This document shows positions 34,362-44,205 of a stretch of DNA of 59,097 bases, piece by piece. This DNA comes from Candidatus Zhuqueibacterota bacterium. GTDB lineage: Bacteria; Zhuqueibacterota; Zhuqueibacteria; Residuimicrobiales; Residuimicrobiaceae. The position numbers and the translations under genes are program-made. Each line of letters opens with the position of its first letter. Position 1 is the first letter of the stretch. The notes beneath the pieces were generated by a model. That model was not told the origin of the DNA, did no database searches, and saw only the letters and a program-made list of their open reading frames with translations. The DNA lies in NCBI GenBank assembly GCA_963169875.1, contig CAUJEL010000099.1, positions 1-59,097 on the forward strand, written 5' to 3'.

Positions 34362-34402
34362 AAAAAAGCTGCCAGATCATCAGATCCGGCAGCTTTTTTT
34401 TA
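34361..34402. terminator. Bidirectional terminator between the receptor gene and the DUF6132-like gene
   Basis: A run of A plus GCTGCC (34368-34373) pairs with GGCAGC (34388-34393), with GATC/GATC inside the hairpin and eight T residues after it. It serves both convergent operons. Confidence 0.9.
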
Positions 34403-34591
34403 CGATTTCTTGTCCTGTTTGCTTCCAGGCATGGTGAATAACAATCCTATGATCATCCCATAGCCTGTAGATATATAGGGATTGCTGGTAAGGGGACAGG
34501 CACCGCTTTGACAGCCGATAAAATAGTAATAAGCAAAACCGGCTGCAGCACCCAGAGCGATACCGGCTGCAATACGAATTGGTTTCTTCAA
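34400..34591 (-). CDS. Small DUF6132-like membrane protein
   Basis: 63 residues. A glycine-zipper-like helix (I-A-A-G-I-A-L-G-A-A-A-G) leads into Y-Y-Y-F-I-G-C-Q-S-G-A-C-P-L-T-S-N-P-Y-I. A second hydrophobic segment G-M-I-I-G-L-L-F-T-M follows. The C-x3-A-C-P-x-T-S-N-P pattern is what I know from DUF6132-type proteins; the two Cys may be redox-active or bind metal. The start is TTG at 34591 with GGAG correctly spaced. It is the last gene of a minus-strand group with the FmdB-like protein and the candidate selenoprotein. Function unknown. Confidence 0.8.
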   Translation of the reverse strand: MKKPIRIAAGIALGAAAGFAYYYFIGCQSGACPLTSNPYISTGYGMIIGLLFTMPGSKQDKKS

Positions 34592-34639: not shown

Positions 34640-34852
34640 TCAAGTAAAACCGCCGTGGCTGCCGCATCCGCCGTTGCCCGCGATGCTCCCCGTGGAATGA
34701 TCAAAACCCGAAGCGGCAAAAGCGGAAAATAATTTTTCGGGCTTTTCAGCCCCGCAAACCGGGCATTGCAAATTCGAGCCGTCCGCTCCCACGCGTTGAA
34801 ATGCATCGAAAACATGACTGCACTTTACACAGCGATATTCATAAATCGGCAT
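34640..34852 (-). CDS. FmdB-family zinc-ribbon protein
   Basis: 70 residues opening M-P-I-Y-E-Y-R-C, the FmdB hallmark, with Cys pairs C-V-K-C (residues 8 and 11) and C-P-V-C near 30 forming a single zinc ribbon. The tail is glycine-rich (G-N-G-G-C-G-S-H-G-G-F-T). FmdB-type proteins are called putative regulators, but their role is largely unproven. Its ATG overlaps the TAA of the upstream gene in TAATG, so it is translationally coupled to the candidate selenoprotein. That overlap is one reason to believe the upstream frame is read through its TGA. Confidence 0.88.
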   Translation of the reverse strand: MPIYEYRCVKCSHVFDAFQRVGADGSNLQCPVCGAEKPEKLFSAFAASGFDHSTGSIAGNGGCGSHGGFT

Positions 34853-35025
34853 TACTCCTTCTCCTGACTGTTTTTGCTCACCTCTATTGACGAGACATCC
34901 TTTTTATCTTCCACCGGAAGATCACATGCCCCGGACATTCAAGTCGGGACGCCCAGTCTCGGCAATACAAATCTGGCCATGATGAACCATATGGCTAAAA
35001 AAATTAAAATACTCACATTATCCAT
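34852..35025 (-). CDS. Candidate selenoprotein: small membrane protein with in-frame TGA (U-x4-C)
   Basis: 57 codons from ATG 35025 to TAA 34852, interrupted only by TGA at 34941-34939 (codon 29). AAAGGA lies before the ATG at good spacing. Residues 5-21 are a membrane helix (S-I-L-I-F-L-A-I-W-F-I-M-A), followed by L-P-R-L-G-V-P-T, the TGA, then M-S-G-A-C and an acidic/lysine-rich soluble tail. If TGA is selenocysteine, the motif is U29-x4-C34 at the membrane edge. A perfect hairpin (34906-34922) starts 16 bases after the TGA. The TAA overlaps the fmdB ATG. The alternative is a 28-residue peptide followed by a second tiny frame at the TGAATG junction. I do not recognise the family. Confidence 0.7.
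34906..34922 (-). promoter_or_regulatory. Candidate bacterial SECIS hairpin (small membrane protein)
   Basis: On the minus strand ATCTTCC pairs perfectly with GGAAGAT (7 bp) around the loop GGT. There are 23 bases between the TGA (34939) and the loop. A short upper stem, a small loop starting with G, and a TGA-to-loop distance of 16-37 bases are the published general rules for bacterial SECIS elements. Confidence 0.65.
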
Positions 35026-38167: not shown

Positions 38168-38390
38168 TTCAAAGTCTCCATACTTGTGAAACAGCGATAT
38201 AATCCTGGAAATTCGCATGTCCTGTGCTGGTATTCCATGTGCATGATCTGACGAACGCTTTTTGGGTCACGTTTTTTGCATATTTCGCTTGACTTTTATC
38301 CTGAATTTTAGGACATTTTAGTAGACAGGAAAATACAAGCCCTGTGCGCTGGTGCCCGGTTTTATTTGAACCAACACTTATAAAATGGGA

Positions 38391-38526
38391 GCTATGCTCT
38401 TAGACATGTATTACAGGCCTCCACCCTCCTAGCGAGGGATTGCGTGGAAGTAAAAAATGTTTAGGCGGCGCCCACCGTAATGAACGCGGTTCATTACAGC
38501 CCGGTATCGCACGCAGGGCTTTTTTA
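38391..38526 (+). ncRNA. Possible orphan structured small RNA
   Basis: Downstream of a TATAAA box (38379-38384) come four hairpins in a row on the plus strand. GAGC/GCTC is at the start; CCCTC/GAGGG (38424-38438) has an outer TCCA/TGGA; a perfect 9-bp GTAATGAAC/GTTCATTAC with loop GCG (38477-38497) follows; and AGCCC/GGGCT with six T closes it. GGCGCCCACC precedes the 9-bp hairpin. No plus-strand gene lies nearby, so it is not a normal 3' end. The start is a guess and no RNA family was recognised. Confidence 0.35.
38498..38526 (+). terminator. Intrinsic terminator of the orphan transcript
   Basis: AGCCC (38498-38502) pairs with GGGCT (38516-38520) over a 13-base loop, followed by a T run. 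The loop is long, so strength is uncertain. Confidence 0.55.
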
Positions 38527-43141: not shown

Positions 43142-44116
43142 TCAACGGTTTGCGGGCGGCTTTTTGGACTGTTCCTCAAATTCAAGTACGAGCTGCTGGA
43201 ATTTGGGGTCATCCTTGATATTTTCGTCCAAAGGAACCTGTTTGATGGAAGAGGAGACGATCTTTTTCTTCTTGTCCAGTTTGAGGTGGAGCACCCCGGC
43301 ATATTTTCCCATGGATTGTGAACTAACCATGATGGTTTTGAGATCCGATTTGCTCTGCTGTTGCAGCAGATACGTTTCGCCTCCGAGTACAGCGACATCA
43401 AAACCCGGAACTTCTGCAAGAACGGACTGCATCTTTTGGAATTTGCCATAATAGAGCAGAATCACCAGATCAGCCTTTTCGCGGATTTGCGGCATGAGCG
43501 TTTTGGCAACTTCCACCGGATCCCGATAATCCAGGACGGGTTCACCGGGCTTATTCACAAAAAGTTGTGACATCAGATTGTCCGTGAGACCGACCATGGC
43601 GACTTTTAACTTTTTAAATGGCAGACTTCGGTCTTTGGTTTCTGATTTGATCTCTTTGATGACAAAGGGCGCAAAAACGCTTTTACCGGAATCTTTTAAA
43701 AGTACATTTGCACACAAGAACGTGGTTTGATGCATCAGTTCAATTTTTTTCAAAAAAGTGGCCTTGGTGCTCCATTCACGATAGCCAAGATTGATCGCGG
43801 AATAATTCAGCCAGGTCATGCCTTTGGTGAGATATTCGTTGAGGATCAGACTGTTTGGATCGCTTCCTCTGCTGAATCCACCCGCATCAACCAGAAAATA
43901 AAAGTCCGCTGTTTTAGTGTCTTCCTGTAAGAAACTGGCCCGCCGGGCCAGTCCGCCATAGCGCGCTGACTTTCAGCCACACGGGGTTAAATAGCCGTTG
44001 ATATCATTGGAATAGTAGATGGCCACATTGGCGACATCGGGTTTGACGGCATCTTGTGCAAGCACAGAGACTGCAAGAATCCAGAGCGCCGTTAAGCAAT
44101 AGTGCAAATACTTCAT
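43142..44116 (-). CDS. Candidate selenoprotein: exported 5'-nucleotidase-fold protein with in-frame TGA (C-G-U)
   Basis: 324 codons from ATG 44116 (GGAAGG eight bases upstream) to the stop at 43142, with one in-frame TGA at 43975-43973 (codon 48). The signal peptide is 1-21. Then S-N-D-I-N-G-Y-L-T-P-C-G, the TGA, and without a frame change K-S-A-R-Y-G-G-L-A-R-R-A-S-F-L. The rest follows the metallophosphatase N-domain of 5'-nucleotidases through V-D-A-G-G-F near 83, L-C-A-N-V near 130 and V-A-M-V-G-L-T. Usual metal ligands are changed (D-x-N for D-x-H; L-G-Y-R-E for G-N-H-E), so a redox or binding role is more likely than hydrolysis. A hairpin follows the TGA. Terminators flank the gene. A nonsense mutation is the alternative. 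Confidence 0.75.
43934..43952 (-). promoter_or_regulatory. Candidate bacterial SECIS hairpin (5'-nucleotidase-fold protein)
   Basis: On the minus strand ACTGGCCC pairs perfectly with GGGCCAGT (8 bp) around the loop GGC. The loop starts 28 bases after the TGA at 43973. Stem length, small loop with leading G, and distance all fall within the usual bacterial SECIS limits. The hairpin lies entirely inside coding sequence. Confidence 0.68.
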
Positions 44117-44147
44117 AGGTAAGACCTTCCCATTACCCTTTGCGGTT

Positions 44148-44183
44148 AAAAAATGAGCCAGCAGCGTGGTCTGGCTCATTTTC
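44148..44183 (-). terminator. Terminator after the PorV-OmpA-AMIN gene
   Basis: AAAATGAGCCAG (44150-44161) pairs with CTGGCTCATTTT (44171-44182) around a nine-base loop. It ends the gene at 44206, so the next gene starts from its own promoter near 44120-44150. Confidence 0.88.
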
Positions 44184-44205
44184 ACTCATTATCAGCAATA
44201 TACCA

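Follow-up and report, generated by a model that had tools for sequence, protein, structure and literature searches.

Catalogued bacterial selenoproteins of the bSECIS type share an in-frame UGA, a downstream hairpin with a G in its small apical loop, homologs with Cys, and the factors SelA and SelB. An inventory from 2026 (PMC13188914) lists 119 families and subfamilies of prokaryotic selenoproteins and states a bSECIS model with four constraints. Another described system is the FmdB-family selenoprotein of the GOS metagenome (TIGR02605, PMC2398784), in which the Sec sits inside the FmdB zinc ribbon. The locus analysed here lies in a window of 59,097 nucleotides, the whole stretch of DNA examined, from a Candidatus Zhuqueibacterota bacterium. 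It resembles the catalogued bSECIS selenoproteins in all of the features named above. In contrast to them, the predicted product is a single-pass membrane protein of about 55 residues, characterised by a U-x4-C motif rather than by a thioredoxin-like fold. An FmdB gene adjoins the new gene in most loci; unlike in the GOS protein, this FmdB carries Cys, and the predicted Sec is located in a neighbouring membrane protein without a zinc-ribbon match.

None of the 119 families of PMC13188914 fits when compared by name and motif, no Pfam or NCBIfam (June 2026) model matches the selenoprotein above its curated cut-off, and no relevant paper was found in the literature on such a small membrane selenoprotein. 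The comparison covered names and motifs together with Pfam and NCBIfam models, and an unpublished or unnamed annotation may exist. We consider it very probable, from the sequence comparisons described below, that this gene belongs to a selenoprotein family not described before.

Gene structure and evidence from the single sequence

The gene is read on the minus strand from an ATG at 35025 (AAAAGGATTGCACTATG), with AGGA 9 nt 5' of the ATG. The first 28 codons, encoding MDNVSILIFLAIWFIMARFVLPRLGVPT, run up to the TGA at 34941-34939 (-). Past the TGA the frame continues for 28 further codons that encode MSGACDLPVEDKKDVSSIEVSKNSQEKE, starting with MSGAC, and ends at a TAA that shares its final A with the start of the fmdB ATG (Table 1). 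The original prediction had listed the ATG, the membrane helix, LPRLGVPT, the in-frame TGA, MSGAC and the TAATG overlap, and all are found at those positions. It had also claimed a perfect 7-bp hairpin with a GGT loop, and this too was confirmed: ATCTTCC-GGT-GGAAGAT has a 3-nt loop that starts about 23-24 nt past the TGA, at -9.8 kcal/mol. Its argument that the overlap with fmdB needs read-through was too strong, as overlapping starts also work after ordinary termination.

Table 1. Coordinates of the gene, its predicted elements and the adjoining genes in the window
Feature	Position	Strand	Basis
Predicted 57-residue single-pass membrane selenoprotein gene	34852..35025	-	ATG 35025 to TAA 34854-34852; translation; homologs in the phylum and two further phyla
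In-frame TGA, codon 29, predicted to be read as selenocysteine	34939..34941	-	Codon comparison in relatives
Predicted bacterial SECIS hairpin ATCTTCC-GGT-GGAAGAT	34906..34922	-	Perfect 7-bp stem; covariation in 45 relatives
Cys34 codon TGT, conserved, five codons past the TGA, outside the hairpin	34924..34926	-	Codon counts
Predicted transmembrane helix, residues 3-23	34957..35019	-	AlphaFold2 helix; family flank charges
fmdB-type zinc-ribbon gene, its ATG overlapping the selenoprotein TAA	34640..34852	-	Pfam Zn_ribbon_8 1.8e-15; TIGR02605 4.7e-17
DUF6132 membrane protein gene with GCQSGACP motif	34400..34591	-	Pfam PF19628 1.1e-11

For one sequence, the fold of the 45 nt after the TGA is not unusual (z = -0.69). 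A scan of the window picked out six TGA codons that have open flanks and a hairpin of equal or almost equal quality, and an open frame of this length past the TGA is not diagnostic by itself. Since the hairpin and open frame of the single sequence are not beyond chance, relatives were relied on to show that the gene is real.

A second Sec gene is present in the window at 43142-44185 (-), with its TGA at 43975-43973. It encodes an UshA-like selenoprotein with a PCGU motif, belongs to an already catalogued family, and has a 10-bp hairpin with a GGC loop; its match to NCBIfam NF041198 (131.6 bits) is below the cut-off of 275, and it is shorter than the model. This is probably the first TGA of the original prediction, which rightly called the two genes unrelated. 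At 38336-38523 (+) the window also contains an Rfam match to 6S RNA, with 47.5 bits against a gathering score of 46.4.

Conservation of codon 29, the tail and the hairpin

Homologs were found in 20 of the 22 genomes of the order using the protein with Cys at the TGA as the query, and in 53 of the 82 genomes of the phylum using a profile search. The family consensus is MDxxxIxxxxAxWFxLxRxILPKLGVPT-U-MSGxC-DLP. Aligned codon 29 of the 53 phylum homologs is TGA in 51, TGC (Cys) in one (L137) and TAA in one, and the predicted selenoprotein reading of this codon is strongly supported. A true stop with nothing conserved past it, or conservation of the downstream part alone with an ATG of its own, had been proposed as a refutation; instead, both flanks of the TGA are conserved, as LP-[RK]-LG-[VI]-PT-U-M-S-x2-C. 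Among the 51 TGA members of the phylum, the Cys34 codon is present in 48, as TGT in 18 and TGC in 30, and TCN as well as AGY codons occur for the serine two codons past the TGA. This switching between codons for the same residue indicates that the tail is under coding constraint. The coding frame is open for at least 17 codons past the TGA in all 51 members, compared with 40 and 14 for the other two frames.

Relatives outside the phylum were found by a contig scan with a Cys-only pattern, by which only Cys homologs could be found. The scan returned Cys homologs in MAGs assigned by record title to Deltaproteobacteria, Planctomycetales, Kuenenia (two), Chloroflexi and Cyanobacteriota; L071-L074, from the same scan, look like chance matches. 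In the phylum of the Deltaproteobacteria MAG, 29 of 379 genomes gave matches, and codon 29 of 20 extracted members is TGA in 17, TGC in 2 and TGT in 1. The corresponding figures for the phylum of the Planctomycetales MAG are 39 of 392 genomes and, for 20 extracted members, 14 TGA, 4 TGC and 2 TGT, so that pooling both phyla gives 31 TGA and 9 Cys codons among 40. The phylum of the Chloroflexi MAG yielded one member among 386 genomes, the MAG itself, reflecting a rare occurrence, a transfer or a binning error. As judged from these homologs, the family spans at least three bacterial phyla.

Not every member has a strict Sec-Cys pair: Cys34 is missing or displaced in L172, in L162/L163 and in roughly half of the second phylum. 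Given its absence in L172 and part of the second phylum, the Sec may act alone or with another Cys.

Some individual members deviate further. A subgroup of the second phylum (L223-L235) lacks the Cys of U-x4-C and has a late Cys instead (KCP, DCP, GCS, or GC just before a TGA). The frame of L234 reads GC-TGA-GAA-TAG, for which a second Sec and an ordinary stop are both possible. L170 (G055:C54) has TAA at the Sec site in a genome with selA, and the downstream Cys is still readable, possibly marking a recent loss.

The hairpin is conserved along with the frame. In a gap-free alignment of 45 relatives the seven stem pairs hold in 88.6% of cells, and 60 doubly changed pair cells were observed versus 17.2 in shuffles. 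The covariation score is 0.557, compared with 0.232 for shuffled alignments (0/500), and slid registers all score far lower; RNAalifold recovers the same stem. The loop begins with G, mostly GG, and lies 23-24 nt past the TGA in most of the phylum, while several members from the two other phyla have GGTC or a similar loop 17-21 nt past the TGA. No comparable hairpin was found in the TAA and Cys members L170, L191, L192 and L197; in the Cys member L137 a hairpin is present, but its loop (ACACC) and its position differ. The window hairpin conforms to all four constraints of the bSECIS model of PMC13188914, and we interpret the hairpin after the TGA as a bacterial SECIS element.

These data also bear on whether the locus might hold two overlapping small genes, with a 28-residue product ending at the TGA and a short second peptide restarting at the adjacent ATG. 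Bacterial ribosomes commonly restart at an adjacent ATG, and the TGA-ATG arrangement occurs here and in 40 of the 51 TGA members. In the remaining 11, however, the codon after the TGA is CTN, GTN, GCA or ACG, mostly not starts, so that restart at an adjacent ATG cannot be general. Moreover, the Cys-codon homologs read straight through, the hairpin covaries and obeys the bSECIS rules, and it is TGA, rather than TAA or TAG, that is kept in 51 of 53 homologs. We reject restart, which we regard as highly improbable, because the codon is often not ATG and the Cys homologs are continuous.

Decoding machinery

The window genome carries SelA (570 bits) and SelB (334 bits), both above their cut-offs. 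Across the phylum, selA above cut-off is present in 48 of the 51 genomes with the TGA form versus 13 of the 29 without the family (Fisher p = 1.3e-6, a value that ignores the relatedness of the genomes). Although this assembly is 95.6% complete (215 contigs), a tRNA-Sec was not found in it using Rfam, a pattern or the tRNA-Sec sequence of the same genus, and the Rfam tRNA-Sec matches in the genome were ordinary tRNAs where checked. tRNA-SeC(tca) is present in 16 of the 22 genomes of the order, including one of the same genus; its absence here is likely due to an assembly gap. Elsewhere in the order, genome G001 has two different tRNA-Sec-like sequences, at C44:15488-15569 and C69:470-565, and G004 has a second partial tRNA-Sec match at C3:3228-3271.

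The missing tRNA-Sec would fit a reading in which general read-through or a reassigned code places a residue other than selenocysteine at the TGA. Several observations argue against this. These same genomes also use TGA as a normal stop codon, which terminates fmdB in the window and 12 of the 51 family genes; the genome encodes both SelA and SelB; Cys replaces the residue in relatives; and the same genus has tRNA-Sec. Code reassignment is rejected because TGA serves as a stop too, and we give insertion of another residue very little credence. On the selenoprotein reading that we prefer, the bSECIS hairpin just past the TGA would recruit SelB with Sec-tRNA, and selenocysteine would be inserted at codon 29. 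We infer both this insertion and the Sec-Cys chemistry discussed below.

Topology, gene neighbourhood and comparison with known systems

AlphaFold2 predicts one helix, residues 3-23, followed by an unstructured, low-confidence tail (mean pLDDT 67.6). The N-terminal flank contains on average 1.17 D/E and 0.08 K/R per protein across the family, and the 12 residues preceding the Sec contain 1.77 K/R and no D/E. By the positive-inside rule, these charges suggest an N-out/C-in topology with the tail, Sec29 and Cys34 in the cytoplasm. The motif is U-x4-C, and not the UxxC or CxxU of a thioredoxin-like fold. Searches of solved structures and of plasmids gave nothing.

Of 48 loci from the window's own phylum, 37 have fmdB close to the family gene, almost always immediately downstream of it, and 25 have DUF6132. 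Thioredoxin-type proteins (8 lipoprotein-like, 5 two-domain) and multiheme cytochrome c (Cytochrome_C554) each occur in 13 loci, and 4 loci have a CoA-disulfide-reductase-like flavoprotein. Within the order to which the window belongs, the gene is accompanied by fmdB, DUF6132 and multiheme cytochrome c; sulfur genes are most prominent around it in other phyla. In the phylum of the Planctomycetales MAG, Pfam-checked clusters have the order TauE, MBL-rhodanese, family gene and sulfide:quinone reductase (SQR) in L245, L246 and L250-L252, and the family gene within them occurs in Cys as well as in Sec form; MBL-rhodanese and TauE also accompany L242. DUF302, rhodanese and thioredoxin are nearby in the phylum of the Deltaproteobacteria MAG. 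The neighbourhood probes found nothing in 30 control loci, a contrast that is indicative only, as the probes were partly drawn from the same loci and the controls came from one phylum. On a Kuenenia-binned contig (L067, 4365-5000), a Cys homolog precedes a fusion protein of rhodanese and a YgaP-like membrane domain.

The best explanation of these data is that the product is a single-pass inner-membrane selenoprotein whose Sec29/Cys34 would handle thiol or sulfane-sulfur redox chemistry. The shared theme of the neighbourhoods is sulfide, persulfide and thiol redox chemistry, from which we infer a sulfur role for the family, with slightly less than even confidence. An N-out/C-in helix with a short cytoplasmic tail would hold Sec29 at the membrane surface with Cys34 as its partner. 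The pair would most likely form a selenenylsulfide or accept a persulfide, and electrons or sulfane sulfur could then be relayed between membrane and cytosolic partners of sulfide and thiol metabolism. Candidate partners are rhodanese, MBL-rhodanese, SQR, CoA-disulfide reductase and thioredoxin. It is a real possibility, though somewhat less likely than not, that one-helix selenoproteins of several phyla form a conserved part of bacterial sulfide and persulfide handling, in which a Sec at the cytoplasmic surface relays sulfane sulfur or electrons between SQR, rhodanese-type and thioredoxin-type partners.

A real selenoprotein could instead serve metal or iron handling or the assembly of a respiratory complex. 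Downstream, the window encodes a DtxR-type regulator, FeoA, FeoB and a TonB receptor (named from their translations); in the 13 loci noted above the family gene is followed by multiheme cytochrome c genes; and FmdB is itself a zinc ribbon. However, the Feo genes are several kilobases off, on the opposite strand and beyond the TonB receptor gene. Neighbours in the other phyla are rhodanese, MBL-rhodanese, SQR, TauE, DUF302 and thioredoxins, and a thioredoxin-type protein or CoA-disulfide reductase adjoins the gene in 17 of the 48 loci of the own phylum. We consider a metal or respiratory role a serious alternative, but less likely than sulfur chemistry, which we favour.

The locus adds a widespread selenoprotein family that is absent from the curated libraries and from the 119-family inventory. 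Its length of about 55 residues and the split by the TGA explain why standard gene callers and annotation would miss the gene, and current counts of small selenoproteins may be too low overall. A tractable route to function is provided by the Cys forms.

Two further known systems invite comparison. The YeeE/YedE thiosulfate transporter selenoprotein (PF04143) has a GUxSG motif, which the GC-x-SG-A-CP motif of the DUF6132 proteins (34400-34591 (-) and relatives) that co-occur with the new gene resembles by eye only; no relevant paper on DUF6132 was found in the literature. The new selenoprotein is a different, one-helix protein, and no homology to YeeE was found. Operons for sulfide detoxification can combine SQR, MBL-rhodanese of the persulfide dioxygenase type and TauE, for example the bigR operon (PMC5823870); in the phylum of the Planctomycetales MAG, MBL-rhodanese and SQR flank the new gene in its Cys and Sec forms. 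No description of a small one-helix selenoprotein as part of such operons was found in the papers searched, and the position between these two genes makes a role in sulfide handling directly testable. Measured against the known systems, the decoding is canonical and the protein family is the new part.
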